41,599 nt of DNA from a virus: the IMG/VR virus record IMGVR_UViG_3300010885_059300, positions 1-41,599 of that record. One strand, written 5' to 3'. Positions 1,007 to 28,300 of the stretch are shown piece after piece; within the stretch, counting starts at the first letter, position 1, and each line of letters opens with the position of its first letter. The translations under genes and the position numbers were made by a program. The notes beneath the pieces were generated by a model. The model was not told the DNA's origin, did not search any database, and saw only the letters and a list, made by a program, of their open reading frames with translations.

Positions 1007-1142
1007 GCTTTTTCTTCTTGGCCTTCTTGGCTGGCTCCTCTTCGGGCTCAGCCCTCTTTGCTGGCTTGGCAACTCCCTCAGTGCGCAAGGCGCGACAGGG
1101 AAGGCAGAAGCAAGTTGCTGGGTGATAGAACTTGTCGCTCAT
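996..1142 (-). CDS. Small Cys-motif, Lys-rich protein, 48 aa
   Basis: The ATG at 1142 overlaps the stop of the upstream glycosyltransferase gene in an ATGA, the classic sign of translational coupling, and the frame stays open for 48 codons. The product has a CFCLPC motif (Cys 11, 13, 16) near its start and a tail alternating Glu/Pro/Ala with Lys (PAKKAKKKKRGA), like a basic nucleic-acid-binding tail. Similar little genes are easily missed. Function unknown; a zinc-binding nub with a disordered basic tail is a reasonable description. Confidence 0.6.
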   Translation of the reverse strand: MSDKFYHPATCFCLPCRALRTEGVAKPAKRAEPEEEPAKKAKKKKRGA

Positions 1143-1906
1143 ACGCGGAAGTTTGGGTCAAAGACAATACGCTTGCCGTTGCACCTCATTTGCTCATGGA
1201 GGCCGACATGCTCGCACACTTTTCGGCCAAGCAGGTCAGCAGTTTCGTATTTCAATGGTTCCTCAAAGGCGTCTGCGCGATACAGAGCGGCGGCGTTAAA
1301 TGCCGACCAAACCTCCATTGGCTTTTCAACGGTTGGCATAAAATCTTTCCACCGCTCAATTGCCTGATACTCTGCCTCTTTTTTTTCCATCCCAGATTCA
1401 TTTACAAGTTTGTAGTATTGATCCCAGCAATCATATTCAAGAATCTCGGGAATCCGCAGCGCGTAAATGTCGTAATACCCACCATAGCCATTTGCGGTTA
1501 CCACGTCACATTCAGTGAGCGTGTTCATTGCTGAAACAAATGATTTGGCTTCAAGCGGTCGCGCAAAGACTTCGTCCATGTCTACATTAAGAACCATTTT
1601 TGCTGACTTTAAATCTACCCTAGACAAGGCAACGTTTCGGGCGTAGCAAATCCGGTCTACTCGGTCGGGAATGAACGCGGCGACTCCTTCTTCTACGCAA
1701 AAAGTTACGTTGGTTTTTGGCGCGGACCAATCTTGCAAAAGCAATCTGGTGTTGTCCTCAGAGTCGTTTTCGTAAAGGCTAAAATGGATATTGGGATAGA
1801 TTTTAGCAAGCCGGTCAAAGTTGGCAAGGACTGCAGGCAGGTGCTTCTCAACGTTTCTCGCAACGCCAGTAACCCACAGTTCATCCTGAAATGAAAGTGG
1901 CTGCAC
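1139..1906 (-). CDS. GT-A type glycosyltransferase, 255 aa
   Basis: The product resembles sugar-nucleotide transferases of the GT-A fold, closest in pattern to the CAP59/GT69 mannosyltransferase group. WVTGVARNVEKHLP at residues 11-24 is the first strand and nucleotide site, YENDSEDNT at 45-53 follows, and NVDMDEVF at 107-114 supplies the metal-binding DxD. It probably acts in the host cytoplasm on a cell-surface glycan, a virion protein or modified DNA; the acceptor cannot be told. The frame extends back to 2059 inside the portal gene, so a GTG at 1906, three codons past the portal stop, is taken as start, with only a weak purine-rich ribosome binding site. It is coupled by ATGA to the 48-residue gene downstream. 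Confidence 0.75.
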   Translation of the reverse strand: MQPLSFQDELWVTGVARNVEKHLPAVLANFDRLAKIYPNIHFSLYENDSEDNTRLLLQDWSAPKTNVTFCVEEGVAAFIPDRVDRICYARNVALSRVDLKSAKMVLNVDMDEVFARPLEAKSFVSAMNTLTECDVVTANGYGGYYDIYALRIPEILEYDCWDQYYKLVNESGMEKKEAEYQAIERWKDFMPTVEKPMEVWSAFNAAALYRADAFEEPLKYETADLLGRKVCEHVGLHEQMRCNGKRIVFDPNFRV

Positions 1907-1907
1907 G

Positions 1908-4034
1908 TTACTTGTCTTTATCTTGACGCGATACTTTTGTGGACCAGGACCTTCCAGCGTCTCCGCCCCACAGTGCCCAGGCAATACGTCCGTTGCTTGG
2001 GAATCCCTCTGAACCAGGAGCCCAGCCCTTACCCTTCTTATCAACTGCGTGACGGGCAAAATAGGCGCTCATCTTTCGGATTCGTGCAATCGTCAATCGG
2101 TTTCCAATAATCATTCTTGCGGTAGCCTGACCTGGGCCAATCCCGCCGCGACCAAACTCTTCTCGCCACTTCAGGCCCTTGCGGGCCTCGGCCTTAGCGC
2201 CAGCAGGGGCAACTGTGCTTGCGCCTTCCTTCTGGGCCTCAATCGGGTCATTCGCAATGTTTACCGCAACAAACGATGCGCCAATCTTCCTGTACTCATC
2301 GGCAAGTTCGTCAGTCTTTTCAATAATTTCCAACTCGCCATCGCGCAATAGCTTACTTGCCGCGTACAGGCGGAATCGGTTTTCTGTTCCCTCCGGCCAG
2401 GTGTTAATAATCAAATCGTCATATTGAATGTTATCCTGGGTAAGCCAATCGGCAATTTCCTCTTTGTCGTTCTTAAAGCCAACAACAATGGCGATGCGAC
2501 GGCCTAGCTCCTTAGCTTCGGCAATAGCCTCGGCTACCTTTGGTCGGAGTTCCCAGTCCTCGTCATACAGGGCTTCAATGCCAATCATTAAACCAAGCAG
2601 CGCTTTGCTAGTTTGCTGTTGTGGGTTCATGGTTTCGCCCTGATTTGGCTCTTCTCCTGGGTTGTCTGGCCCGCCTTGTGCTGGTGCCGCGCCGCCCTCA
2701 TCGCCATCTGGTCCGGTGTGCTCTGGCGTGGCCCCAAGCGCACTGTCAAGGTATTCCGAGTAGCGCGAAAGCGGGATATACCCCTTCGGTGAAGGGATAA
2801 AGATGTCGTCTCCCACGGGCCCAATCCCTTCGTGCCCGCGCTCCTGCAGTGCCTCATTGAGCTTCAGCCATGGCAGGCCGGAGAGGGCAGACTTGTAGTA
2901 AGCAGCCATCGCGCCTTGGCTCTCTCGGCCAACCTCAGTGTAAACAAAGCGAAGGTTCTTATCGTAACGCCAGATAATTTCCCGCGTCATGTATTCAGCA
3001 ATTAGGTCGAGTAGCGGGGCAATGCCAACGTCCTGGGTAAATGCGGCGCCGACATCTGCACTTGCGCGGTTTACGTCCATAGTGATGCCAATGTCTTGTG
3101 GCTGAACGGCAAACACGGCGCAGATCTTTCGCGCCAGATAAATTTGCCACTCCATAAACTGCATGTCTCGGTTTGAGGAGGCGAGCGGAATCCATTGCAC
3201 GCCCTTGCCGCCGCCAGTAATAGCAATCTGGCTTCTGCCGGAAATCTCTGTATCCCAGTATGCCTTAAAGGCGTCTACCTGGTCTGCGCGAATACCTTCT
3301 CCAAGATGCAGTACGCCGGGAGGCGCTGCCGCAGACACGGCCTTTGCGTTATAGGCAGCAGCGGTAAGGTCGGCCTCAATAGTGTCGGCTAGGACTTCAA
3401 GTGGCGACAAGCCGATAGGCGAATACGTAACCGGGTTTGAGATAAAGCAAATTAGCTCATGGTTTTTGAACTTACGAGCGATTCTGCCGGTGTCGTCAAT
3501 CTCGTAGTAGCGGGGGTCGACGTCGTTTTCTCCGGTCCACTCATTATTGAAGGCAATTGAGCCACCGTCCTTCGCAATAAGTTCTGCGACCGGCTTTGCG
3601 CTTTCAATGCCGATTGCGCCTCCGCGCGACTGAATAACTTCAATAGCACCCTGGTCAAGAACGAGGATATCCTCAACGACGGGCTCAATGAGTGAGCGCC
3701 ACGAATCCATTCGTCGGTTTGGTGCGCGCAGCAACTCTTTAATTTGATTGATTTTGCGGGTTGTTCCCCTAATCTCTTCCCCATCAAGAGAAACAATGTC
3801 CCACTTTGCGCGGCTCACCTGGGTCCGGCGCAAGTTAATTGCAGCGCGAATCCACGGGTTGCTTCGGGACCACTTGCGCAACTGCTGCACACTGCGGCGA
3901 GTCATTTGAACAGAGCCGACCCCTCGGGCGTATGGTCCAATGTCGTAATCGGGCACAATGGCGCTACCGCCAGCTTTTAGGCTAGTGTCTCCGCCGCCAA
4001 AAATTCGCTGGAAAAGTGATTGGTTCTCTGCCAT
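1908..4034 (-). CDS. Phage portal protein with two extra C-terminal domains, 708 aa
   Basis: Residues 1-430 follow the HK97/SPP1 portal pattern: WIRAAINLRRTQVSRAKWD early, VVEDILVLDQGAIEV at 119-133, LSPLEVLADTIEADL at 209-223, and the QIYLARKICAVFAVQPQDIG helix at 297-316. The dodecameric portal sits at one capsid vertex, acts as the DNA channel and docks terminase and connector. A Gly/Pro/Glu-rich linker (436-468) leads to residues 478-592. These look like a HAD-fold domain without its DxD nucleophile (RIAIVVGF, IADWLTQDNIQYDDLII, ADEYRKIGASFVAV). Residues 618-697 (GLKWREEFGRGG, YFARHAV, RIAWALWGGDAG) form a conserved domain that I recall from other phage head proteins. The gene lies opposite to the other head genes. 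GGGGG upstream of the ATG supports the start. Confidence 0.9.
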   Translation of the reverse strand: MAENQSLFQRIFGGGDTSLKAGGSAIVPDYDIGPYARGVGSVQMTRRSVQQLRKWSRSNPWIRAAINLRRTQVSRAKWDIVSLDGEEIRGTTRKINQIKELLRAPNRRMDSWRSLIEPVVEDILVLDQGAIEVIQSRGGAIGIESAKPVAELIAKDGGSIAFNNEWTGENDVDPRYYEIDDTGRIARKFKNHELICFISNPVTYSPIGLSPLEVLADTIEADLTAAAYNAKAVSAAAPPGVLHLGEGIRADQVDAFKAYWDTEISGRSQIAITGGGKGVQWIPLASSNRDMQFMEWQIYLARKICAVFAVQPQDIGITMDVNRASADVGAAFTQDVGIAPLLDLIAEYMTREIIWRYDKNLRFVYTEVGRESQGAMAAYYKSALSGLPWLKLNEALQERGHEGIGPVGDDIFIPSPKGYIPLSRYSEYLDSALGATPEHTGPDGDEGGAAPAQGGPDNPGEEPNQGETMNPQQQTSKALLGLMIGIEALYDEDWELRPKVAEAIAEAKELGRRIAIVVGFKNDKEEIADWLTQDNIQYDDLIINTWPEGTENRFRLYAASKLLRDGELEIIEKTDELADEYRKIGASFVAVNIANDPIEAQKEGASTVAPAGAKAEARKGLKWREEFGRGGIGPGQATARMIIGNRLTIARIRKMSAYFARHAVDKKGKGWAPGSEGFPSNGRIAWALWGGDAGRSWSTKVSRQDKDK

Positions 4035-4849: not shown

Positions 4850-6604
4850 ATGTCCGACTTTAAGATTTACACGAATGCCCTTAAGGCCTTTGAGGCCGAT
4901 AATGGCGACCGTTATGTAACGGGCACCACTTCTTCAACGATTCGAGACCTCCATGGTGACGAGATGACGCTCGCCGCCTTGAAGAGCATGGAGGCAACCG
5001 CCAAGCAAAACATGACAATCTGGCTCAACCATGAGTACCAGGTTCCCGACGATCTGTTTGGTTCGGTCAAGGATGCACGCATTGTTAAGCGCATTGATGC
5101 ATCCGGGCAGGAAGTTTTTGACCTTGACGTCGACATCTCCGTCGTTTCCGAGGACGAAAACCCAGAGGCCATTCGCGCATACCGCGCAATCAAGCGCGGC
5201 GTTAAGCTTGGCCTTTCAATCGGCGCGCGGGTAGACCGCGTCAGCAAAAAGGTAGACAAGGCCACCGGAGAAGAGACATACGTTATTGACAGTGTCAAGT
5301 TGATGGAAGCCTCAGTTGTTGGCATTCCGGCAAACCAGCGTTCATATCTGCAGAATGCCGTCAAGAGCCTCCGTGGCGCCTCCCGGGCGGAAATGGATGA
5401 GCTTGTTGCTAAGGCTGTTGAGGTTGAAGGCCAGGCTGGGGCCGATAAGGCTCCGCTGACTGGCGCCTTGTATACATTGCTTGCTGAGGCTACGGCCTTC
5501 TACCTAAAGGCGCACGGCGCCCATTGGAACGTTGTTGGCGAAGAGTTTGCCCAATATCACGACCTCTTTGAGGAAATCTATGAAGACGTTCACGAATCAC
5601 TTGACCCAATTGCGGAAAACCTTCGCAAGCTAAACTCCGCGGCTCCTTTTGAGTTGAGGGATTTGGCGCGAATGACCAACGAAGCTCCTCAGGCGGAGGG
5701 CTACGAAGCGGAAGCCCTTGCCTCTAACCTTTATGCTGCCAACGAATCGTTGCTGGAAAACATCATGGTTGCCTTTGGGGCTGCTACGGATGCCAACCAG
5801 CAGGGGATCGCTAATTTCCTGGCCGAGCGTCAGGACATGCACCAGAAGTGGTCATGGCAGCTCCGGGCTTCTCTTGCTGAGGAGCCAGGTGAGGCTGAAG
5901 AGTCAAGCGAGGCAGAAGTACTGTCCTCTGCAATGAAGCAAAACAAAAGCCCACAGGGCAAATCATTGGAGGTAAAGAGCGTGGAAAACGAAAACGAGAT
6001 TATTGTTGACGAGGCCGTAGTGCCAGCAGCAGAAGTCGCCCCAGAGGCGCCAGTAGAGGCTCCGGCTGAAGAGCCGGCCGTAGACGCACCAGCAGAAGAG
6101 CCTGCAGCAGAGGACGAGCCTGCGCACGTTGTGGCCCTAGAGGCCCTTGGCGCAGAACTAGTCAAGGATGTTGATGGCGAGTCAGTTGCCGATGCCGTTG
6201 AAGCCCCCGCCGTCGCGCCCGAAGCGGAAGAGGTCGTTGAGCCCGTTGAGGTTCCGGCTGAAGCCGCCATTGAAACAGCAGGAGAGCCAATTGAGGCTGC
6301 TCCTGGTGGTCAGACCGCCGATACAGCAGCGATTGCCGAGGTCGCGGAAATTGCCAAGTCTGCACTAGATGCAGCCCTAGCCGCACAGGCTGAGGTAAAC
6401 GCCTTGAAGAAGAGCGTTGCCGAAGTCATTGCTGCGAAGGCCAAGGTCGAGTTGGAGTTGGAAAAGACATTGGACCTGGTCGGTCGATTGATTGACGTCC
6501 CCGTTGGTCATGTGCCGGCCTTTAAGCGTGCCACGGGAGAGATGGCGACATCTGCCCCTTGGCTAAGCCCATACATCCAGCGTGTGCTGGAGACTCAGGA
6601 GTAA
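4850..6604 (+). CDS. Prohead protease - Dps/ferritin-like - scaffold fusion, 584 aa
   Basis: Three modules are visible. Residues 1-170 are an S78/HK97 gp4-type prohead protease with the likely triad H61 (LNHEYQ), S123 (GLSIGA) and E153 (MEASVVGIPAN); it should cleave head proteins during capsid maturation. Residues about 203-343 are a Dps-type four-helix ferritin-like domain. H225 (AHWNVVG), H237 (QYHDLFEEIY), D252 and E256 (LDPIAEN) have spacings of 12, 15 and 4, the same as the E. coli Dps ferroxidase residues H51, H63, D78 and E82. Residues about 344-490 are Glu/Pro/Ala-rich and disordered. Residues 492-550 are a coiled coil followed by a C-terminal tail, as in scaffold or delta domains. 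The ATG has a GGGGG ribosome binding site, and the capsid gene follows directly. The protease and scaffold parts are the normal context; the Dps insert is unusual. Confidence 0.92.
   Translation: MSDFKIYTNALKAFEADNGDRYVTGTTSSTIRDLHGDEMTLAALKSMEATAKQNMTIWLNHEYQVPDDLFGSVKDARIVKRIDASGQEVFDLDVDISVVSEDENPEAIRAYRAIKRGVKLGLSIGARVDRVSKKVDKATGEETYVIDSVKLMEASVVGIPANQRSYLQNAVKSLRGASRAEMDELVAKAVEVEGQAGADKAPLTGALYTLLAEATAFYLKAHGAHWNVVGEEFAQYHDLFEEIYEDVHESLDPIAENLRKLNSAAPFELRDLARMTNEAPQAEGYEAEALASNLYAANESLLENIMVAFGAATDANQQGIANFLAERQDMHQKWSWQLRASLAEEPGEAEESSEAEVLSSAMKQNKSPQGKSLEVKSVENENEIIVDEAVVPAAEVAPEAPVEAPAEEPAVDAPAEEPAAEDEPAHVVALEALGAELVKDVDGESVADAVEAPAVAPEAEEVVEPVEVPAEAAIETAGEPIEAAPGGQTADTAAIAEVAEIAKSALDAALAAQAEVNALKKSVAEVIAAKAKVELELEKTLDLVGRLIDVPVGHVPAFKRATGEMATSAPWLSPYIQRVLETQE
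5981..6604 (+). CDS. Internal in-frame scaffold protein, 207 aa (nested)
   Basis: Codon 378 of the fusion gene is GTG, preceded by a perfect GGAGGT at 5968-5973 with 7 nt spacing. Initiation there would make the acidic Glu/Pro/Ala-rich region and C-terminal coiled coil alone, without protease or Dps. Lambda uses the same design, where scaffold Nu3 is an in-frame internal product of protease gene C. The start lies after the end of the Dps domain, at a sensible module boundary. The ribosome binding site and frame are seen; expression is inferred. Confidence 0.62.
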   Translation: MENENEIIVDEAVVPAAEVAPEAPVEAPAEEPAVDAPAEEPAAEDEPAHVVALEALGAELVKDVDGESVADAVEAPAVAPEAEEVVEPVEVPAEAAIETAGEPIEAAPGGQTADTAAIAEVAEIAKSALDAALAAQAEVNALKKSVAEVIAAKAKVELELEKTLDLVGRLIDVPVGHVPAFKRATGEMATSAPWLSPYIQRVLETQE

Positions 6605-6610
6605 TAAATC

Positions 6611-7837
6611 ATGAGCGACAACCGAGAGATCCTAGGCGGATTCGAGCAGGGTCTTGAAACCCTTAACGAGTCCGTAGTGACCCGAGATTCGGGCGCAGGG
6701 AAGACTTTCGACGCCGCCGAGGCCTATGCGATTCAGAAGGACCTTCGCACGAAGTTCCAGAAGATGAACACGTCCGACCTTCACGAGATGCTTGACATTC
6801 AGGCAGCTCGTCAGACCGGCAAGCAGGCTTCGTCCGACGTCCTTAATCAGTTGGCAGTTGCTAATCCCAACATTGCCAAGCTTCTTGACAGCAGCGGTGG
6901 ATCGGCCCTTATCCGACAGGACCTAGAGCCAATCCTTTACTCGCTTTTCGTAAAGAAGTTCCCATTCTTCGAGCGCATCCGCAAGGAGCCGGCAAACGGC
7001 CTCGTGCACGCGTTCAATCAGCAGAGCGCTTACGGCAGCGCAGTTTTCCAGACGGAAACTGGCACCGTAACCGATGATTCCTCGACCTATGCTCGCCAGA
7101 CGACTAACGTCGCCGTGCTTGCAACGCGCCGCGGGATCACGCTGAAGTCACAGTTCGCACTTGGTCAGGGTGGCGGGCCGTTCAACGGCCTTTCAACCGA
7201 GCTTGCGGGTGGCGTCACCGCTATCGCAGCAAAGCTTCAGACTGCCCTGTTCCAGGGTAACGCTGACACGACGGCTTCGGCTGGCGCTGCAACTGAGCTT
7301 GGCGCATACGACGCAAACGGCTTTACCGGCCTTCGCAAGCACCTTGGCTCCGGCGCTGGTGTTGCGCAGATCGTAAACAAGGGGGCAAGCGCGTATCTTG
7401 CAACGATCAACACGAACGTTGCTTCGATTCTTAACGCGGGCGGAAACCCATCGGCAGTCCTTTGCTCGCCAACGGACTACGCTGGTCTTGTTAATGAAGT
7501 GACGAGCCTCGTTCGTTACAATGCCCCATCGCAGGGTGGGCAGGCAATGGGCCTCACACTTGGCACCGTAGTTACGGCCGCTGGTGAGCTTCCACTCCTT
7601 CCAGTTCCAGGCGACAGCATTGGTACGTACACCATCAGCGCCCAGGGCCACCGCGACATGTATGTCGTGGACGAGGATACCTGGTCGATGCCATACCTTG
7701 GCTCGGACTCGATCACGACGTTGGAGATTCCAATTGGCGTGGCCGGTTCCCTCTCGCGCCTTTACATCATGTATGTGATGTTTGGTCTTGCGAACAAGGC
7801 ACCGCAGTTCAACGGCAAGATTCGCGTAAACGTGTAA
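6611..7837 (+). CDS. Major capsid protein, HK97 fold, 408 aa
   Basis: It follows the protease/scaffold gene after 6 bp with a GGAG ribosome binding site, the standard place for the major capsid gene. Residues 1-100 are a polar helical N-terminal arm. From about residue 105, LIRQDLEPILYSLFVKKFPFF and the following beta-rich region look like the HK97 N-arm/E-loop and P/A domains; FQTETGTVTDDSSTYARQT fits the E-loop region. It should assemble as hexamers and pentamers forming the icosahedral shell. Codon choice is more biased than in neighbouring genes, with many CTT and GTA/AAG codons, as expected of a highly expressed gene. The strong hairpin right after it supports a separately controlled high level of expression. 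Confidence 0.9.
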   Translation: MSDNREILGGFEQGLETLNESVVTRDSGAGKTFDAAEAYAIQKDLRTKFQKMNTSDLHEMLDIQAARQTGKQASSDVLNQLAVANPNIAKLLDSSGGSALIRQDLEPILYSLFVKKFPFFERIRKEPANGLVHAFNQQSAYGSAVFQTETGTVTDDSSTYARQTTNVAVLATRRGITLKSQFALGQGGGPFNGLSTELAGGVTAIAAKLQTALFQGNADTTASAGAATELGAYDANGFTGLRKHLGSGAGVAQIVNKGASAYLATINTNVASILNAGGNPSAVLCSPTDYAGLVNEVTSLVRYNAPSQGGQAMGLTLGTVVTAAGELPLLPVPGDSIGTYTISAQGHRDMYVVDEDTWSMPYLGSDSITTLEIPIGVAGSLSRLYIMYVMFGLANKAPQFNGKIRVNV

Positions 7838-13372: not shown

Positions 13373-16300
13373 ATGGCGGAAGCTGGAAACCCAACAGGAA
13401 CGGTTCAGATTGGCTTGGACGCGACGCAGTTCCGTGCCGGGACTCAGGCCATCCTGTCGGATATCCGCTCCATCATGCAGGGCCTTACTCAGTTTGAAAA
13501 GGCCTCCAGCAAGACCGGTGGATCCCTTCGAGGGTTCGAAGACGCATCTCGTTCGCTGAAGTCGTTCCGAGCTGCTATTGACGGAGACGCCCTTCCGGCT
13601 CTCCGAAGATTGCAGAATCAGGCATCGGCTTCAGCGAACTCTCTTTCTAGGGTATTTCAGGTTGGTGCACAGTCAGCGCAGGCAGTAGGCGGTATCAACC
13701 GCATTACCTCTGCGTTGGCAGCCCAAGAACGCCAGGCGCTTCGCACAGCCGACGCTATGGCACGCGCAGCAACGTCCAGCCAACGTGGAGCGATGGCGTT
13801 CCGCAATGGTGGTCGAAGCAGCAGCGGTACTTCGGGACGTAGTGTCTCTGGTGGTACTCGCGGCGCGCGGTCGTCTCTTGACGACTCTGGCGCGGCTGCC
13901 CGTCGGTTAAACCAGCAGGCTGACGCCCTATTTGCGCGCGTCGGAAAACTTACTGGCGGGAAGGGCCAATCAAAGTGGCCGTTCCGCGACATGCCAGATC
14001 CACGCAATGACCCCAAGCAGGCCTGGAGATTTGCCACCCCCTCCGCCGCCCAGCAGGCAGCAAACCGTCGCAGGCTCCAGGAAATTGACCGCAAGTTCCA
14101 AGAGAGCATTGCCCGTCGAGGCGGCTGGAAATCTGTTTACGCTGCACGCGACGAAGACGACGAGATGTTCTCCCGACGTGAGCAATACGCTCGCAGGGGA
14201 TCACTCGCACCAAAAATTTCTAAAGCAACAAGAGAAAAACTTCGCGCTGCGGATAAAACGCGCGTGCGCCGATCTTCTGGCTACGGATACTCGGAGCCAA
14301 CTACGGGGACCGCCAGCCTAGAACAGGCTGCCGAGCTGTACGCACGAGCGCTGGCCCGCTCTTACGCTGCCGGAGTTCGCATCCGAGGGGCTTCGCCGCG
14401 CTCCGCTGCTGGGCGCGCGGTTGGCGCAAGGGCCCAGCGACTTACGGGCGAACTGGACACCGCCCTGTATTTTTCACCGACTGATGCTGGAACCCGAGCG
14501 CGCGCGCGGAATCGACCACGGGCATTTAACCGCGCAGATCAAAGCCGACGCCTAGAGCTTCTCCAGGCCGCGGTAGATCAGATGACGGACTCCCATTATC
14601 CTGGCCGTCTTGGTTCTACTTCTAAGCTGATGCGCGGCGGATTTGTTGCTGATGCGCCAAACCCGTATCGACGCAGCAGCATCCCCGCGCTTAGAAAAAT
14701 GCGCCGCCTACTTGTTGGTGCTTACTCAACCGCAGAAACCATGCAGCCGGGACAAACTGGATACCTTGGCGCCCTCGGTGGCGTAGGGGCTCCTGGGGTT
14801 GGCGCAGCACTGATCGCCCATGAGATTCGCCGTCGAGCAAGAGCAGGTCGCGCATTGCCGCTTACGGCGGTTTCAGACGCGCTGCCAATGTACCTTCGCG
14901 GCGGGTTTGGGCGTGGCCCAAGCGGAAAGCGTCGAATGAGTCGCAATGCAGCTGAGCGCGCTATGCAGCTAGGCGAACTTACCAGCCTTGGATTGAGCGC
15001 CGCGGACGCTCGTAAGTTGCTTCCGTTAATACGCGCGCAATTGAGGGAGCAAGAACGCGAGCTAGGTCTTCGCCCTGGAGAAGTGCAGTTTGCGAAGAAG
15101 GGCAAGCTGAGCGGTCTCAAAGATCTTCAGAAAAGATCAGCAGAAGCACGACTAGAAGCTGTTGAATCTAGAAACTCGGGTCGACCATCAACAGGTACGG
15201 CATCAGTGCGCGATGCATCTTCAAGATTCTCCAGATCTATTATCCGTTCTGCCGCGGCTGGGGTAAAGACACGAGAATTTGGCGGAAGAACAGGCGGAAG
15301 AAACGCTTCGGCTCGACAAAAAGCAGAACTTAACAAATTACTGCAATTCAATGAAGATTTACGCGACTATGGATCTCTTAGGCCCGTCTGGTCGAGTACA
15401 CCAACTGGAGGGAGAGTCCAGCGCAACCTAACGCGACTGCATCGCCGCAGCAGCAGTGGAGGGCTGGGTCGACAATTAACATACAGGCCAGTAAGGGGGC
15501 TTGACCCGACGACTGAAGACAACCAGTCAGCAATGCGCATGACGTCTTATGCCCTGGAACAAATGATACGCAACAATCCCGGCAGGGTGGCGCTGGCACC
15601 CAACCCCTACTACAAAAAGCGCGGCTACCCAAAGCAACTAACACGAATGCGCATGATGCCGGTGGGGGGGTACTCATCTAGCACTGGTGGCGGAACGCAC
15701 GGATATCTTGGCGCACTTGCTGGCACGGGCGATGGCTTTGCGGGAAGAGAAGCTCCGCTAGGGGGAGTTGGCGGCACCCTGATTGCTCAGGAGCTAAGAA
15801 GAAGAGATCGCTACCGGCGAAGTATGACGCCTTCCCAGCGCAAGGGTTTGACCAGGTCTGGCTCTACGGTAATGCCATACAGTGGATTTGGTCAACTCGA
15901 AATGTTTGGAATTGATGATGCGCTACCTGTGTATCAAAATTTTGGCGCCCAGCAGCGCCGCGGCAGTGGAAGAGTCAGAAATTATCGCCGCGGAGAAGAA
16001 ATTGACCAGCAAAGCGGACACCTTGCGTGGACGCCTTGGCGCACTAAGTCAATAGTTCGCGGCATCCGCCGCTCGCTTCCTGGCCAGATTGCAACGCTTC
16101 GAGCAATTGGCGGAGATGCAATTCCTTCAGACATTCGATTTGCTAAGAGGGGCAAGCTTGGCGGACTTGGAGCCATGCAGGGCGATAAGGCCGCAACGCG
16201 CCGTCAATCTGCGATGCGCGGCTTTGGACCCTCTGCTGGAACCGCAAGTGTTGGCGATGCTTCCGACCGTTTTGCCCGCTCCCTTGTCCGCGCTGCCGCA

Positions 16301-19300
16301 GCGGGCGTAGTCACACGTGAATTTGGTGGCAAAAAGGGAATTGGCGGACTTAGTGATCGACAAAAAGCACAAAACGCTAAATACGAACAGTTTCTGCAGG
16401 CGTTGCGCCAGTACAGCGAAGTTGATTCATCTGGAGTAACTAACCTTAGAACTAGAAATCGCTCCAGACGCCAGGGCATGACAAGAGACTATTACCGCTT
16501 TAAGCCAGTGAAGGGATTTGACCCGACGACCCCTGACAACCGCAGAGCATATGGCATGATGGGTCACGCGCTGAGTCAAATGACTTATGGCCAGCCTGGC
16601 AGAGTAGCCCTTGCGCCAAACCCGTATTACAAAAAGCCTGGCTATCCGCGCGCCCTGACGCAGCTGCGCATGATTCCAGTTGGCGCCTATTCGTCAAGCA
16701 CAAATGCCGATACGCACGGATATATCGGCGGATTGGCCGGCACTGCGGAAAATTGGGCGGGCGGAAAAGCTCCGCTAGGGGGAATTGGCGGAACACTTAT
16801 TGCCGGAGAGCTAAGAAGAAGAGATCGCTACCGTCGAAGTATTCCGCCACTTGCGCGCATGTCTTTGACTAGGTCTGGCTCTTTGTTGCAGCCATATGGT
16901 GGCTTTGGGCAGCTGGAAATGTATGGCATTCCTTCTGCTCTTCCCGCCTATCAGGCACTGGGGGCGGAAGAAAAGCTTGGTAACGGGAGAACAAGGCCAT
17001 ACAGACGGGGCGAAAGAGTTGAAGATCAAGACGGTTCACTAGCGTGGACCCCTTGGCGCACTAAGTCAATAATTCGCGGCATCCGCCGCTCGCTCCCCGG
17101 GCAGATTGCTGCCTTGCGCGAGATCGGCGGAGACGCTATTCCTTCAGACATTCGATTTGATCGCCGCGGTGGGCTACTGCCAAATCTGCGCGGCAAAGAG
17201 GCCATGTCCGGAGCAGAGGCTCTTCGCCAGGCAATTGTTCGAGCAACTGAAGACGGTCGAGAAGATGTGCCAAGAACTGCCAGCGTTGAAGACGCGGCAC
17301 GCATGCTTGCACGCGGAATTGTGCACTCTCAAATTGGCGGGGTGAGAATCCAAAGGGTTGCCGCGACTGGTGAGCGATCCACAGAAGCGCTTCTCAGCAT
17401 GGGTATTCTGGATGACCTAGTTGAGCGACACAGGGAATCGATACGTACTGGAACGCCTAGCCCTTTCCCATTTATTCCCGCTTCTACTGGCCGCGTCGGC
17501 ATGATGCGTTCTGGATTGCGACAAATGGGCAGTGGGGAACGTGGTGGATTTATTGCCACACTTGGCAACCAGGGAGTTCCTGAAGATCTTCGGCCGCTAA
17601 TCCCGCACATCCCGATTGGTGCCTACTCCACACGTGACCCAGGAGATTTCCATGGATACCTAGGATCGCTCACCGGCCTTGGAGTTCCAGGGGTAGGAAG
17701 TGCGCTTATGGGCGCAGAAATCAAGCGACGTGTTGCCATGGGTCGACGCAGCGCAATGACCACAGCCAGGGAAAGATTCCTACACCCTGGCGACATCATG
17801 GAGCACTACAGAAGCATTCTTCCGCGTCATATCCCTTCGCTTGAAGTAAGCGCCGCAGACAGCGGGAAGGGTTTTTACGCTTCAGCTGGTTTTACCGATG
17901 CAACGGGTTTCCCAATTGGGGGAACCCATGTAGGGGGAGTTCCAAGTCGTTTGGAACTTCAAGGACCAAAACAGCTTGCAATGCTTGCGGAGATCCGCAA
18001 GCAGATTGCAATTTTGGAAAAGGAATATGGGCTGCCACCTGGCAGCGTCAGATTTGCTAAGAGAGGTTCTCTTAGCTCTATAGCTGCATCCACCGGGGTG
18101 CGTGGTAAGGGGGGTGATTCTACCGTGGGCGCAACATCTAAGAGGGGGTTCGAGCCGCTTGCGGCAGCAATCGATACTTCCCTGGGCGCGTATATCAACG
18201 AGATGCTGCAGGGCTTAAAAGCCGGTCGTAATGGAACAGTTGGGCCACGCCAAGTGGCGAAAGCTCTTGGCAAATTCCAGGAAGATATTCTCGCAAGCTT
18301 TGGCATTGGTTCTGGTAAGGGTATTACCGGAATGCGTGCTGGCTTCAGTGCTCTTCCTGCGGATTCGCGCCGAAAGATTGCCAAGAGCGTTTCGGCAATC
18401 TTCGGAGACCTGCTTTCCGACTACACCGAACGGATGGCCCCAGCGTTTAGGCGCGGCGGTTCTAGCATCGCCTCATTGGGCGGCGTAAGCCACGCCGCCG
18501 ACCTTAAGGCCCTTCTTACTGGTTCCCAGGGCGTATTGCTTGAAGAGCTTGCCGCCGTTCAGGCTGCAGCAAGGCCTTCACGCCGTAGAAGCGGTGCCAG
18601 AATCCCCGCAGCGAATGCATCTAGGTTCCGAACGACCCCTCCTGGAACTGGCCTTGACTACGTCAACGGTCTTCCAGTTATAGGGAACGACTTCCGCAAT
18701 TCTCCAGCCATTCTCCAAAGCCTACAGAGTGGTGGGCAGGGTGCCTACAACAACTCTTTGGTTGCAACCCTTCTTGCCCAGCAGTTTATGCCACGGCTGC
18801 CTAAGAACTACGGATCTCTCACGATGTCCAATATCGTTGAGACACAAGGTGCCTTTGGCATTGCCGGAATAAACGAAAACAAAAACCTTCGCGGCAAGCG
18901 GCATCGCATGCCAGGCGGCGAGAACACGGGCTTTGGGCACGTTATGTTCGATCCGGCCGGAGGCGAACGCGCAACGATCACGCTCTTCAACACCGTCAAG
19001 ACAATGCTTCACGAAATCGAACACGTTCGAGAACGCGCAGCACAAATAGAGTCAATAAAAGCAACTGGCGGTAAGGCATCAGGACCAGCATACGAGGCGG
19101 AAATGAAGCGCCGCGGATTTGGTTCATCTGAGCTTCTCCCCGTATACGACCCAGGAACCGGCGAGCTTATGTATGTTCCAAAGGGCGCCCCTGGCATCAA
19201 GGTTGTAGAAAATGGCGTGCTAAAGCTCCCAGGTGGCGCACTCACCAAGAGTCAGTACATGGAACTGCCGATTGGGCAGCGCGGTGGGTTCCAGAGAGCA

Positions 19301-22300
19301 ACCATTACGCAAGCGCAGGCGGCAGAGTTTGACAAAAATGCCGGTGGATCACACGCAAATATTCAGCGCCACTTTATGCCACAAGCACGAATGGGCATGG
19401 AGTCAGGTTTTGGCATTGCCCAGATGGCAAGCTTGCTTGCATTCTCTAACAGGAACATTCTTCCTGGAGAAACAAGAGAGGAAGCTACGCTTCGAAGCCG
19501 AATCACTAACACTGGCTTCTTCCCTAGTGGCCAAGAGCAACAAATTATTGCGGCTGGCGGCATAAACGCTGTCAGGCCTGGTCTTGCTGGAACAGCCAAT
19601 GCGTATATTGCCGGTGCGCTTCCTGCCTATGAGCAGGTAGCCAAGGGCCCACAGCGGACCGCTGCGCTGTTCGGCGCGCGAGTACAGGCAGGGCTGACAA
19701 ATGCAGTGTCTGCACTGGCGGGGGGCGGCGACGACATGTCGCTTCTTGGCGGTGCCGCAAAGGCACTTGTCAGGGCAACGCAGGCAATCCCTGCCAAGGA
19801 GCTTAAGGCAACCTTTGGCTCACTGAGCTCTACGGCTCTTGCCGACTTTGGCATGATCCTTGACGCTGCTGTTGGCAGCGGCAGGAAGCTTACGAGAGAA
19901 GTGCCAATTGGCGACCCAGTAACCGAAGCGCCAGGAACAGCAAACTACGTTGATCCAGGCTATGCCACCGAGGGCAAGGGAAAGAGACGCCGCAAAGCGA
20001 ATGTGCCAGCCGCCCCAGTGGGCGGCGGAGCAACGGTACGAGCGCTGACCCCAGAGGGTCTACAGGCCGTATCCGCTGCCCTCCACGCGCTCACCCTAAG
20101 CACCGCTGGCGTATCCCCAGAGGCTCTGCCGCAGGCACGTGCAAACGTTCGACAGGCACGCACGGGGGCCCTTGGCTTGCCTGCGCAAGTAACGCCCAAT
20201 CTTGAAGCGGTTCGCAGGAGCCTTGCACTTGCAACGCTTGCCGCGGAAGTTGGCGCAATGCCAGAAGGCCCCCACAAGGAAGCCCTTAAGGGGATGCTTC
20301 GGCCGCACATGCCAAACAACCCACTCTTTGATTTGCCAAAGGGAACTAGGACCGGCCGAGGTAAAAATGCTGCCGTTGCGGCGCCAAGTACCTCTTCAAG
20401 CACGGCACTGATTCCTTACGAGCCACCACTCAGCGCATCGGACCATCTTGCCCGAATCCAGGCGTCTATCTTTGGTGACGCATTCGGTATGGGCGGCAAG
20501 CCACGCGGACCACAAATCCCAGGGCCAAACGTTCTCCCAAGTTACGCGGGCCTAGACGACAACCTTAAAGGGATGAGTCCGTCCCTTGCCGAAGTCGGCC
20601 AGAGATTGAAGGGGTACGTCACCAACAGCAGAATGGCTCTTGGGATCACCCAGGAGTTCTCTTCCGCCATGGAACGGGCACGCGCAGGAACAATCAACTT
20701 CGGCGAAGGCATGCGCAAGATTGCAGACAGCAGCAGGGGCTTGCTCTTTACGCTTAAGGACACCATTAAGTTCGCAACCGCAATCACGCTGACTCAAAAC
20801 GTTGCTGGCGCAATTAGCCAGGGAATTGGTCACCTCACCGGTGGATTTATCCAGTTCAACTCAATCCTGGAGCAGTCACGCGTAGGATTTACCACCCTGT
20901 TCAAGCAGGGCGGAGACGAGATGGGCGTTGCCGAGTCTCGTGCCGTAGGGATGATCGAGCGAATGAAGGAGTTCGCCAACATTACGCCGTTCCGCTTCCA
21001 GCAACTTGAAGAGGCTGCCATTCGAATGAAGGCGTTCGGCCTGGAGATGGGTAACATCATTCGACGCGATAGCAGCGGACAGCTTGTCGGCTACATGCGT
21101 AGCATTGGTGACGCAGTTGCGGCCCTTGGCGGCGGCGACGAAAAGATCATGCGTATTACGTACGCACTTGGGCAGATGAACTCTGCTGGTCGCGTCTATC
21201 AAAACGACATGATGCAACTCGCAAACGCGGGTATTGCTGGTTACGAAATCCTGGCAGAGAAGCTCATTCAGGAGCTTGAAGCCAAGGGAGAAAACATGAC
21301 CGCTGAGGATAAGAAGATCCTCAACGAAATGTACACAAACAGAATTGAAGCAATCCGCAGGCTGACGTCTAAGGGAGCAATCTCAGGTAAGGGTGCAGTG
21401 CAGGCCATCATGGCCGGCCTTGGCGAGCGCTATGGCGGCGGTATGGAGCGGCTGTCCAAGACGATGGCAGGTGCGTTCAGCACCATTGCCGACATGTCGC
21501 AATCACTGGTTGCCACCATGACTGGCCCGCTCTATGACGCGATTCGAGACGTAGTTGTTGATCTTGCTACATACATGCAAAGCGACGAATTGCTAGAAAC
21601 CTTTATGAAAATGCGTGATGGCATTTCAGGTTTTGCAAACGATTTGCGAACCGCAATTCCTGCGGCGGCAAAAGTAGCTGGGGACTCCTTTGGGTTCTTT
21701 ATCAGACTTATGCAAAACATGTTCGGTTCCGGAAACGGAGTCATGGGCGGCATTGACCTGCTCAAAAAGGGATTAGGCACATTGGCCGACCTGCTGAGCA
21801 ACGACGTGATTCGATCAATGGCTATGGCATCTGTTGCCGCAAAGATCCTCATGTCTGCTCTTACTTCGAACCCGCTTATTGCCACGGTTGGAGCAATCGT
21901 TGCCATACTCGGAGTAATGCGTACTGCCTATGAACAAAACTTCATGGGTATTAGGGACACCATTGACACCCTTGCCCCAAGGTTCAAAGAAATTGCCGAC
22001 ACGATTCAGGCGAATCTTGTCCCAGCTATTGCTGGTTTTATTAAGGGCGCTGGAACGTTTATCACTGGCGCGCTTTCAACCGCGATTAAAGTCCTAGGGC
22101 CAATCATTGCTGGCTTGGCAAGTGCCTTTGGCGGCATTGGCGGAGTCCTGCAGGTGTTTGCTCCAATCCTTGGCTTTGTTCTTGCCATGCTTATTACCAA
22201 GAAGCTTGCTGTCGATGGCTTCGCCATGGCATTCACCAGGCTTTCACAGGCAATTGCTGGCGCCGCTTCGCAGATGTCTGTGTTTGGCGCAAACACCAAG

Positions 22301-25300
22301 TACGCAGGTACAAGAAGCAAGGTTGGAAGCAACCTTGGGATGGTTGCGGTTGACGAGCAAACTGGTGCTCTTGCTGGCTCTTCGCTCGCCGATAGGGCCA
22401 AGATTGGCACTGCTGACGGTGGCTCTGAGCAGCTAAAGAACAAGGTCGGCACCCAGGTTATTACCCCGGCAAAACTCCGCGGCGCAAGCTTTGTCAGCGC
22501 TTATGGTCCAGTGGCCATTCCTGGCGGTTCTTTCACTCAGGATTTGCAGACCGGGCAGGTTATTCAACGCGAAGCGGAGACGGGACCAGTAGCCCGCACG
22601 TTTATCGGCGCAACGATGAACACCGAGATGTTCGGCGAAAAAGAAGTCCAAGAGTTCGGAAAGCTAAGAGACCGATCTATTGCTAAGGGTTACCTAGGGG
22701 TTGATACAGGTAGGGATGACGCTCTTCGGCACATGTCGAAAGACGAGATTAAAGAACTAGAGGCATTTGAAAAGAGAACCGGTCAGACAGTTCCAACGGA
22801 CCAGCTTCCAGGATACGCCCGAGCCGCGGCATTGGGCGAAGGGAGCATGAAGGTTGAGCAGGGGGGAACTGCATTCCTAGCCAAGAAGGCTCGCGAAGCA
22901 CGCAGGCAGGAAGCTGCCAGAAATAATGTTTCCGCTCGCACAATGGACAAGATCGTTGCAGACGCTGTTGCTGCCGGCGAACATCGCACCCCAGAAGTAA
23001 GAGACGCAGAGGGCAATGTTATAGATCCGGGCGGCGTGCTTAAGCCGCAGTATCGCAGACTAGTTGCGCCAGACAGCGGCAAGGGTGCGGTGTTGAGCCA
23101 AGAAGAGCGCCTTGCTCTTATTGATGAATACGAGCGTGAAGGGGCTACCGCAGAACCAGATAAGAGCCAAGAAGATCGCCTTCGTGAGGCTCAGGAAAAG
23201 CGCGCAGCCGCTGCGCGCGAGCGCAAGCGCATCCGCGATGCGCGGATTACCAAGGAGCAGCTTAGGGCAAATAAATTTATCCCAATTGATCAATTCAGCA
23301 CTGAGGGAGACGGCGCAACGGGCGTCATCCCCGGCTCACCACGTCTTAAGGGTACGCGTCGGATTCAGGAGTACTTGAAGAAACTTGGCAGCAGCATGTG
23401 GACTTTGGGCCGACGCAAAGTCACGGCGTACGATCAGGGTCAATTCAACACGGAACTTGGCATTGGTCCAACGGGGACAATGCCCGGAAGCTTGCGCGTG
23501 CCAACCCAGGGTCCAATCCCCCTTGGTGCGTTCAATACCGAGCTTAGCCCAGTAGGAAAGATTCGCAAGTACCTAAGCGGCCTGAGAGGCGCACGCGCGC
23601 CAATCTCTGCCTTCTCGACAGAAGGAGCCACACCAGGAGCACCATTGCGAATTCGGCCACTAGAGCGCCGAGATCTTTCTGCGTTCAACCTTGAAAACGA
23701 CCTCATGCCTGGCAGATTTACTAGGTTCCGAGAGAATCTTGGTGAGCGAGCCAGATCAATTGGTGGCGGGATTAAGGATCGCCTCACGTCATTCGCCACA
23801 TACTACAAAGACAAGCATGGCCCAGCGGCAATGCAGGCAGCGGCAGTTTCCGCCTCAGCATTTGCCACTGCGGCAGGCGCAACAACAATGGCACTTGGTG
23901 GACTTGTTGGAATTATCAACGCAGACCTTGGGGCATCGATTGCATCGGTGGGAGCCGGCCTTGTTGGCTTTGGTCAGGTTGTATCTATGGCCACTGCAGC
24001 AATGGCGCAAATTGGAAAAGCTAAATTCTCAAACATGCTGTCTTCTATCACCGGAGTCATGATGGGACCAGTGGGGATCATCGCGGCAATTGCGGCAGTT
24101 GGGCTTGCCCTGTGGGCACTTGACCAAGCAGTCAAGCAGTCTGTAACAGACATGAAGAGTTATTACAAGAAACTTGTTGAAGCAGACAAGAAGGCCAGCA
24201 CTGACATTGCGGACGTTGCCGGATTGCGCGTAGCCAAGAAAGACAACGATCCAACCAAGTATCGAATTACTGGAATGGACAAGGACGGCAATCTTCTTAA
24301 CACAGATTCTTCCCAGGCCACCATTGACGGGATGGTCGAGCGGGGAATCCTGGAGATGGTCACTAACCCATTGCTCTCTCCTGGGCAGCCGGGATATATA
24401 ACCTACAAACCAACGCAGGCTGGCCTAGAAGCGGGCTACTCCGGCGTTACGGAAAACTTTGACAATTACGACGCTCCAACGGCACCAATTCAAAGAACAG
24501 CATCAGAGATGGATGAATTCGCTTCAACTGTTCTGAATGGTCCTTTTGTTGGAATGAATATTGATGATTGGGATGAAAAGAAGAAACTTCTCCTTGAAAG
24601 ATTTACCAAGGGAACTATCGACCTTGATGAGTTTAAAAATGCCACAACTCAGGCTATGGGCGATACAAATAAGGCATGGGAGCTCTATTCTGACACGGGC
24701 GATGCGGGTAAGGCTCTCCGAAAAGAATACCTAGTAAGCCAGGGCTACACGGTGGACCAGGCCGACCGAATGTCTAGCGCAACGGCTGACGACATTTACT
24801 TTACTGGCGCAGATGTTGCGCGAGAAAAATTGGCTGGAGACAGCAACTACACAGACCTGCAACGCTACACCGACCTTAGCAAGTACCAAACAGAATCAGG
24901 AACAGGCTTTGATCTTAGCTACGGAAAACTTGGGAAGGAAGGCCTTATTGATGAAAGCATCTTTAACGTCTCTGAGAACCTAAAGCTTCTTAACGACAGT
25001 CTCGAAGATGCGCAAAAGGAAGCGGAAAAAGCAGCCAAGGCGTTTGCCAAGCTGTTTGATCCGTTTGCTACGGTCTTTGAACAATTCATGGCAAGGGCCA
25101 TGAAGATTGTTGGGGAAATCTTCAAGCAAGAGCAAGATCAGCTTGCCGCTCAAACTAGCGACGCCCTCTCTAACGTGACTGCGCTGCACAACGGCGAGGT
25201 TACCCGACTTGGCGTGCTTGAAGAGCAGTACAAGGTGCTTGAAGAGCAGCGAAAGGAGCAGGAGCGCATGAAGGCGCTTCAGGACGCACAGGAGGCTGCC

Positions 25301-28300
25301 GCACGGGCAACCCTGGGCTTGTTCGATGCGCAGGTTGACCCTATCGACGCAGCTATTGCTGCAAGAGAAGCCTCGCAGGCCCTGCAGGAAGAAGAGCAGA
25401 ACGCTGCTATGGACACGCTTGCATCTGACATTGAGCGAGCAAAGAGCAGCGTGGAATACGCAGAAACCGAAGAGTTCTACGCAGCAAGGAAGAAGCAGCT
25501 TGACGAGGACCAAGAGGAACGACAGCGCCAAATTACCGAGGCTGCCGCCAAGTTGATGAACGATATCAAGCTCGGGAAGATTACGCCAGAAAAGGCAAAA
25601 GCAGAGTTCTTCAAGATCTTTGGCGACGTTGGCATTGACATGGAGTCAATCCTTTCAACCGGGACAGTTGCTGGTCAGTCTTTGGCTGCAACGTTTGGCA
25701 CAGCATTTGTTGACTCGTTCCAAGCCTTTGGAACCACCATTGTTGACACAATTGGCGCGGTGGTCAGAGCTGGTATTAGAGCAGTAAACGCAGAGCTTAA
25801 GATTGACCAAATTGTTGCGGACATTGAAAGGATCGAGAACGCCAACGACAAGGTCAAGGGAAGCAAGATTATTGCCGAAAAAGCCCGGCTAAAAATGGTT
25901 GTAAAAGACACGGAATTCCAGCTAAAGGCTCGCGCGGCGAACGAAATGGACCCAGAAAAGGCCGCAGCTTACAACGAGCTTCTTGGGCAACTTGCTAAGT
26001 CGTTAACAGTATTTGACAAGATGCAGACTTTCGATCCCGATAAGGATTACACGCGCAAGCAATTTAACGATGCGTTTGACGATATCTACAAGATGTTTAC
26101 CAACTTGTATGACATTACTGGTCCGCTGTACAAGATTATTCGCACGGTCGGAACCGCACGCGGCGGTCAAGTTGGCGCAGGTCGATACCTTGTCGGCGAG
26201 CGTGGACCAGAGATGCTGGAAATGTATCCAAACGGTGGCGGAAACGTCATCCCAAACCACAAGCTTCCTACTTCCATGCGCTCCTCCTATGGCGCGCTGA
26301 AGGCAGGTAAGGGCAACCAGTATCAGGGCAGAGCCAATGGTGGCTCCGTTGGCTGGGATCGCAACGACTATGGCATGAGCGAGGCGGCGGGCAATTTCCA
26401 GGAAAGCCTGCAGTATCTCAACGACCCTACCGGGTTCCAGCAAATGTCGTTCAACCAGTTCATGGATAGCCCAAGCAAAACAAGAGCCGAGAAGAACGAA
26501 CTAGCCCGTAGGTTCCCAAAAAACTACGCCAAGTATGTTCGCTCGAAGATTTCTGGCGGGGCTGGCGGTAAGTTTGGATTTGGTCGCATGGGCGGCAGAG
26601 CTGCCGGTGGTCCTGTTTCAGCATCCCGAGGCATGGCGCCTACGGACTGGACAGACGATCCAATTGACTGGGACGATGATGACGATGATGGTGGAACGGG
26701 AACCGAAACTCCAAGTATCGTCTGCCCTCCAGGGTGGACGCCAGTTTGGAACGGCTTTGGTTGGACTTGTTACCAGACATCAACAACCGATCCAGACGAT
26801 CCAACTGACCCGGACTGGCCGGATGTTGTCGTGCCGGAATATCCACCGACGGAATCGTGCCCAATTGGAACATTCCCACGTTGGGACCCAGTAACTAAGT
26901 CATGGACGTGTGTCCCGCTGGATCTAATGTGGCCAGAGTTTGGCACGCCTGGGCTTCCAATTCCAAGAGCGTTGTTGCTCGACGGGCGAGCACACATGAT
27001 TGCAAACAACGAAATGCCATGGAAGATGAAGGATGGTGTTTGGACAAAGATTAAGGGACAACTTGCGCGCGCATACGCTCCGTTCGGGGCGGGCGAAGGC
27101 GGAAACCCAGACATCCTTGATAACTCCGGCAACACAAATGCTGGCAAAGCGAGTACAAAGCCAGGCCCACGGATGGGCGGCCAGCAGACTGCAGTAGTTG
27201 CAGGCGGCACCGGCTGGCAGAAGCGATGGGGCTGGTTCTCTAAGATCCCAGGCCTAGGAAGGTTTAAAAACCTTACCGCGATGCTGCAGGAAAACGTACG
27301 TCCTTTGGACTGGCTCAAAAAATATCAGCTTGGAACAATGACCCGAGTAGGCATGCCGGAATCAAAAAATCCAAGCAAGGGAATTGTTCGCAAGGGAATT
27401 GACAAGTGGATTCCTAAGGGAATGACGGGCAAGGGTATTCTCGGAAGGATTTTTGCAAACGGCAACCTAATGGACGCCTCTGCCAAGAGAATTTACCCAG
27501 CAATGAGGGCATTGTCAGCCTTTGCGGCTGTCGTTGTCTCTGCTCTCGATTGGAAAGAGCAAGAGAGCATGGGGGCAGACTATTGGCAGGATCAGCTAAA
27601 TGTTATGGCCAAGGAAAACGCCATTGAAGAATGGTGGGCAACAAAAAGAAAATCTGTTGTTCCAAGTTGGCTTGATCCCGTTATGGGTGTTGGCAATTTC
27701 TTTGCAAACCCAATTGGTGGGATTACCGATCTCCTTGGTTGGACAGACGCACCGCGGCTTCCCGACGCCCCTAACATTGTTAGCGGCATAGGAACCGCAA
27801 TAGACAGCTCGTACAAGATGCCGTTGGTTGATCAGGCTTTGAAGAATGGTGAGATTAAGTTCCCCCCTGACATTGTTCTTGACGACGCGCAACGGGAATA
27901 CTTTGAATCTTCAAAGGAGCCGTTCCCAAGGTTCGCCTTTAGAACGGGCGGTACTGCTCTTGCCCTATTGGTGCAAGGCGCTCTTACCGCATTCCTTGGT
28001 GTCGCATCTGGCGGACTTGCGCTCCCAGCGGCAATTGCAATCGGCTCTGTACTTTCCGCGGTGGGAAATGCGGCAGGCGGCTCAGCCTATGACTTGCTCA
28101 TGGGTACGGATACGCCGTTCCACGAAGTTCGCGGGATTGGAAAAGCTGGCGATAAGGGGATTCTTTCTAACATGGGCGATGTTGGTGCTGGAATCGCTGG
28201 GTTTATTAACGGCATTGCGGGCCTCCTTGACAGCGGGAAGAAGGTTGACCCTGCGTACTCTGAAAAGGTTTCGTACAAGGAAGGCCTGTTTGACCCTCAA

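Follow-up and report, generated by a model that had tools for sequence, protein, structure and literature searches.

In bacteria, Dps oxidizes iron and shields the DNA. Why would a tailed phage carry a Dps-like domain inside a putative head-maturation protein? In the DNA analyzed here (the window: positions 1 to 41,599 of IMG/VR virus record IMGVR_UViG_3300010885_059300), a single open reading frame (ORF) links a prohead protease, a Dps-like domain, and a probable scaffold (Table 1). Is the Dps domain intact, is it a fixed part of this protein, and what might it do in or near the phage head?

Table 1. Features of the head polyprotein and the adjoining capsid gene, in window coordinates.
Feature	Position	Strand	Basis
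Whole head polyprotein ORF (584 aa), from S78 protease through Dps and acidic linker to scaffold-like coil	4850..6604	+	one open ORF
S78 (HK97-type) prohead protease domain, residues 1-175	4850..5374	+	PF04586, invariant columns, beta-rich model
Cassette, swapped for a TUDOR cassette in L128/L129	5374..5889	+	blastn breakpoints versus L128
Junction peptide VAKAVEVEGQ around K188 (residues 186-195), running into the beginning of the Dps match	5405..5434	+	conserved motif
Dps/ferritin-like domain, residues 194-343	5429..5878	+	Pfam, PHROG, PDB match, model, alignment
H225 (E. coli Dps H51), ferroxidase ligand; followed by W226 (W52) and N227	5522..5524	+	125/125
H237 (E. coli Dps H63), ferroxidase ligand	5558..5560	+	125/125
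E241 (position of E. coli Dps D67), variable	5570..5572	+	E in 42/125
D252 (E. coli Dps D78), ferroxidase ligand	5603..5605	+	125/125
E256 (E. coli Dps E82), ferroxidase ligand	5615..5617	+	125/125
Linker (residues 346-491), acidic and rich in Ala/Pro/Glu, with predicted disorder	5885..6322	+	pLDDT < 50
Scaffold-like C terminus: a long helix (493-548), then a terminal helix (574-583)	6326..6601	+	model, conservation
Major capsid protein, SU10 type	6611..7837	+	PF17236, E = 3.5e-8; PHROG 752, E = 8.6e-11

A protease, a Dps domain, and a putative scaffold in one ORF

The N-terminal part of the ORF matches the S78 protease family (PF04586 in Pfam; residues 48-170, E = 3.6e-7, 30.9 bits versus a curated cut-off of 21). 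Three residues of this domain, H61, S123, and E153, are invariant across the aligned relatives, and we consider them the likely catalytic residues. A model of the full ORF has a beta-rich protease up to about residue 158 and a confident Dps domain at residues 198-342, with residues 160-195 at pLDDT below 50. Overall, the confidence of this model is low (mean pLDDT 63, pTM 0.33), which is expected because the modules sit on flexible linkers.

The C-terminal helical part is kept in relatives with or without Dps, and the SU10-type capsid gene is the next gene, just 3' of the ORF. In gpO of P2, an N-terminal protease and a C-terminal internal scaffold are combined in one chain (PMC7552001). The window has the same arrangement, with an N-terminal maturation protease, a C-terminal helical and putatively scaffolding part, and an adjoining capsid gene; given its position and this precedent, the C-terminal part presumably acts as a scaffold. 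The two proteins differ in the middle, which in gpO is about 50 residues (142-194), whereas the window's ORF has a foreign, enzyme-like domain of 150 residues there. A preliminary description of this DNA had proposed both the S78 fusion and the scaffold-like part, and the Pfam match and the full-ORF model agree with it.

Three other genes in the window deserve mention. The portal protein (708 amino acids, 1908-4034, - strand) and the capsid protein are encoded on opposite strands; the portal's match to its Pfam family stops at residue 398, and about 300 further residues have no assignment. The portal gene overlaps at its end with a gene at 1139-2059 (- strand), whose product resembles a CAP59-type mannosyltransferase family, but only below the threshold. 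In the position of a tape-measure gene, one ORF (13373-28861, + strand) encodes 5162 amino acids with internal repeats and takes up more than a third of the window.

The Dps domain retains its fold and four ferroxidase residues

Residues 206-343 match the Ferritin/Dps family (PF00210; E = 7.8e-11, 42.5 bits versus a curated cut-off of 24.5), and the domain also matches the phage Dps family PHROG 3636 (E = 8.7e-24). The top match by sequence in the PDB is 8ff9, the Dps of Pseudomonas aeruginosa (PA0962; E = 1.2e-18). An AlphaFold2 model of the domain, built from 38 phage sequences (mean pLDDT 89.8), is a four-helix bundle with the short BC helix that is typical of Dps (helices at 8-34, 40-67, 76-82, 94-121, and 125-149 in the numbering of the cut piece). 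With this model as the query, 8ff9 headed the Foldseek matches (TM about 0.8, rmsd 1.7-1.9), and the matches listed were of the Dps family. The preliminary description had read a Dps-like domain from the letters and had left its fold to structure prediction; the four-helix Dps fold that we obtained, with 8ff9 as its closest structural match, bears this out.

When aligned to the Dps of E. coli K-12 (reference sequence from NC_000913), residues 225, 226, 237, 241, 252, and 256 fall on H51, W52, H63, D67, D78, and E82, so the spacing of H225, H237, D252, and E256 is exactly that of E. coli Dps, as had been claimed. These four ligands are present in every one of a set of 125 phage ORFs with Dps. 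One of our search patterns contained HWN, so the conservation of H225 is partly ascertained; the other three ligands lay outside that pattern. An acidic E241 had also been highlighted as the equivalent of D67. Its position is correct, but of the 125 ORFs only 42 have E there; 30 have G, 15 have A, and 12 have L, with Q also among the common residues. Because the site varies among relatives, E241 is not a family trait, and we do not count it as a conserved fifth ligand.

Between close members near the window, dN/dS for Dps was mostly 0.05-0.1, which are rough figures since many of the synonymous values are near saturation. We conclude that the domain retains the Dps fold and all four ferroxidase residues and that purifying selection acts on it.

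The window's domain thus resembles bacterial Dps proteins (PF00210, 8ff9, and E. coli Dps) in its fold with a BC helix, its ligand spacing, and its equivalent of W52. It differs from them in lying inside a head polyprotein, in its strong acidity, and in its variable fifth ligand position. It also lacks a Lys-rich DNA-binding tail, which only some Dps proteins have. Given the net charge of the domain (about -14), the acidic flanks, and the missing tail, protection through DNA binding is unlikely. DNA binding by a basic tail is unsupported, and the earlier description of the domain as DNA-protecting is weakened insofar as it meant binding DNA.

Dps is one of several cassettes in an exchangeable slot

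A search with the protease domain alone brought up the contigs L128 and L129. Their S78 domain is 100% identical in protein sequence to the window's over residues 1-175, but their ORFs have no Dps: a TUDOR domain (PF11160) takes its place. By blastn, the DNA of L128 is 90.5% identical to the window up to 5373, and similarity returns at 5890. An identical protease with a different domain behind it, and clean breakpoints in the DNA, indicate that the gap is an exchangeable cassette slot.

Across the 81 ORFs of this protease family (the window included, and some cut off by contig ends), 53 contain TUDOR, once or twice, but lack Dps. Dps alone is found in 12, of which 5 are half-deleted, and another 12 combine Dps with TUDOR, a PHROG 2859-like module, or both, in varying orders. 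The remaining four have neither Dps nor those other modules. TUDOR is the commonest cassette (L128, L129, L132, L134, L143-L157, and others) and is sometimes doubled. In L179, the slot holds a DUF5824 module. Separately, DUF5824 is fused to Dps, with no recognized protease, in L057, L066, L076, L097, L101, L112, L118, and L122. The presence of DUF5824 both in these fusions and in the slot of L179 points to a shared pool of modules.

The cassette can also be lost. Compared to L187, L178 is missing about 465 bp, corresponding to the Dps part, while the flanks are 79% and 87% identical. L178 still has a junction peptide that resembles that of its Dps-bearing kin, so loss of Dps does occur. No cassette was recognized in L178, L196, or L210, nor in a distant relative from a contig of an Anaerolinea metagenome-assembled genome, which has the protease and the scaffold and no Dps. 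(This single related gene was too thin a basis for naming a bacterial host from the genome collection.) L161, L164, L166, and L167 have half-deleted Dps domains that are still in frame: only the second half is present, without the iron ligands or the ferroxidase helices. For L161 and its near relatives, this implies that any iron role is gone in that lineage. Complete Dps cassettes keep the iron site.

Between the window and L001, dS is 2.2 for the protease and 0.49 for Dps; between L007 and L010 the pattern is reversed, with Dps more diverged at silent sites than the protease. Opposite disagreements in different pairs of genomes are best explained by exchange of the cassette between genomes. 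Overall, the cassette has been gained, lost, and swapped while the protease and the coil changed little.

Dps recurs beside head proteases of several families

A recognized part of a head protease accompanies Dps in 61 of the 125 Dps ORFs, from contigs that are partly redundant and that were sampled by similarity to the window. In another family, Dps is N-terminal to S78 (for example, L043, L056, L058, L111, and L125). Dps also follows an S78 protease of PHROG 80 (L054), proteases of PHROG 2753 (L047) and PHROG 9427 (L050), and portal/protease proteins (L038 and L105). In L044 and L073, a free-standing Dps gene overlaps the end of the protease-like gene directly upstream of it. UniProt also contains entries named "Prohead protease" from uncultured Caudovirales phages that have a Dps fold within them, as in the window (A0A6J7XDU5, A0A6J7WPK9, and A0A6J7WIS1). 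The combination of S78 with Dps, for which the preliminary description had proposed a database search, is recurrent in contigs of uncultured phages.

In a tree of 88 Dps sequences, the groups mostly follow the architecture, and the window's type forms one supported group (SH-aLRT 97); the alignment has too few columns for an exact count of the fusion events. Three ORFs of 627-688 amino acids (L095, L098, and L124) have Dps in mid-protein, with flanks that do not match any well-supported family.

The other free-standing phage Dps genes that we sampled have no single preferred neighborhood, and most are without head genes nearby. Among the proteins encoded near free-standing Dps genes, 5 of 82 match PHROGs 4689/10346, which are also matched by L050, a protease-Dps fusion, in its DUF6321 region. 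In two isolated phages, Salmonella phage 7-11 and Aeromonas phage LAh_6, Dps lies amid genes for nucleotide metabolism. This suggests an intracellular role, and it counts against a role for Dps as cargo of the head.

A candidate cleavage site at the module junction

Of the 32 type A ORFs, 28 carry the junction motif around K188; outside type A, no Dps ORF has it. The linker around it is otherwise variable. The conserved peptide may be a cleavage site or may merely mark the edge of a module. The capsid protein of HK97 is cut at K103-S104, and its sequence has these residues there. In the window, K188-A189 at the junction and IAK-LLDSSGG in the capsid protein look alike, but this likeness is suggestive only.

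What is the Dps domain for?

With moderate confidence, we favor the explanation that Dps is an optional internal cargo of the head, which would be taken into the prohead by the scaffold, freed there, and then oxidize iron. In its favor are the intact fold and ligands, the swappable slot, the recurrent joining of Dps to head proteases, the disordered linkers between the modules, and the precedents of P2 and T4. Against it count the variable fifth position of the metal site, the lost iron site of L161 and its near relatives, and the putative 12-mer, which would have to assemble with a further domain at each end of Dps. The mechanism that we infer has steps of packaging, cutting and release, oligomer formation, iron oxidation, and a benefit to the phage. 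The C-terminal coil would co-assemble with the capsid protein and so pull many protease-Dps copies into the prohead. As the head matures, the protease would cut the disordered linkers, with the Lys-Ala junction at K188 as one candidate site, and the released Dps would remain in the head beside the DNA. There it would oxidize ferrous iron, probably using peroxide, which would limit Fenton damage to the packaged genome. Dps might also act early in the next infection. An assembled Dps dodecamer is about 9 nm across, which would be too wide for a tail tube, so it would need to dissociate or unfold before entering the next cell.

Could Dps work in the infected cell instead? If it were cut off and left in the cytoplasm, it could lower free iron and peroxide there. 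In publications, phage Dps is seen as a protein that works inside the cell (PMC8008677, PMC6669764), and the scarcity of head genes around most of the free-standing genes fits with this. But a free gene would do for this purpose, and the repeated fusion of Dps to head proteases or scaffolds, in several orders, would be left unexplained. Also, a domain between the protease and the scaffold should reach the prohead unless it is cut off earlier. We think that a purely cytoplasmic function is rather improbable.

Another possibility is that Dps multimerizes the head protein: its dimers or dodecamers would cluster protease-scaffold chains and help to nucleate the prohead, and the metal site would only stabilize the dimer. 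The ferroxidase site of Dps is located at the dimer interface, so conserved ligands could reflect conserved dimerization, and L161-type members retain a helical half without the ligands. On the other hand, relatives with an identical protease and a similar coil lack Dps, and L178, L196, and L210 manage with no recognized cassette. We consider this structural role unlikely. Because near-identical relatives are without Dps, the cassette seems dispensable for heads. This disfavors Dps as an essential part of assembly, and the comparison of sequences supports its being cargo instead of a required part.

Since Dps is fused directly to a protease and has an intact site, it might also be a sensor, in which bound iron or peroxide alters the timing of the attached protease. 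We consider this very improbable in view of the long, disordered linker and because Dps can be replaced by TUDOR, by other modules, or by nothing at all. Finally, although our evidence is from metagenomic contigs only, we rule out an assembly artefact or a chance similarity, whose probability is negligible given dozens of independent contigs from many samples, low dN/dS, and a strong fold match.

If Dps is an optional cargo, then the slot between the prohead protease and the scaffold could be a general loading dock in a large group of uncultured tailed phages. Its cassettes, which would include Dps, TUDOR, DUF5824, PHROG 2859-type, and other, unknown modules, would be swapped or lost, loaded by the scaffold into every prohead, and released by the protease; the Dps version would be an iron-oxidizing enzyme of the head. 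We put forward this broader reading tentatively, as a realistic possibility.

Relation to known systems

The internal proteins of T4 are diverse cargo proteins that share one targeting sequence (PMC3012670), and they are the nearest functional precedent. In both cases, a diverse and exchangeable cargo (putative, for the window) is tied to a single shared packaging feature. They differ in that each T4 cargo is a protein of its own that bears the conserved targeting sequence, while the window's putative cargo is fused inside the protease-scaffold chain.

Dps proteins encoded by single phage genes are known from Gratiaviridae (PMC8008677) and Lactobacillus phages (PMC6669764). These proteins, like that of Salmonella phage 7-11, belong to the same superfamily as the window's domain and are phage-encoded, but they are single-domain genes, and the ones that we inspected lie outside the head module, unlike the window's.

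The preliminary description knew of no described system of this form. Consistent with this, we did not find any paper describing a fusion of Dps with a prohead protease in the literature that we searched, which included few subscription journals. Also, none of 50,697 phage records matched at least 80% of the Dps query or of the Dps-S78 query, so we found no such fusion in an isolated phage. But the claim needs qualification, as UniProt's prohead proteases already include the Dps fold; those entries are database names only and leave the function of the fusion undescribed. The parts are known, then, while their arrangement as an exchangeable slot appears to be undescribed in the literature and databases that we searched.

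Implications

If the cargo explanation is correct, then some phages ship an enzyme acting on iron and peroxide along with their genome. This would be relevant both to virion survival in the environment and to phage-iron chemistry. The slot would also offer a natural way of bringing foreign domains into phage heads, with release by the protease. The TUDOR, DUF5824, and PHROG 2859 cassettes would become candidate internal head proteins, with roles that can be tested.
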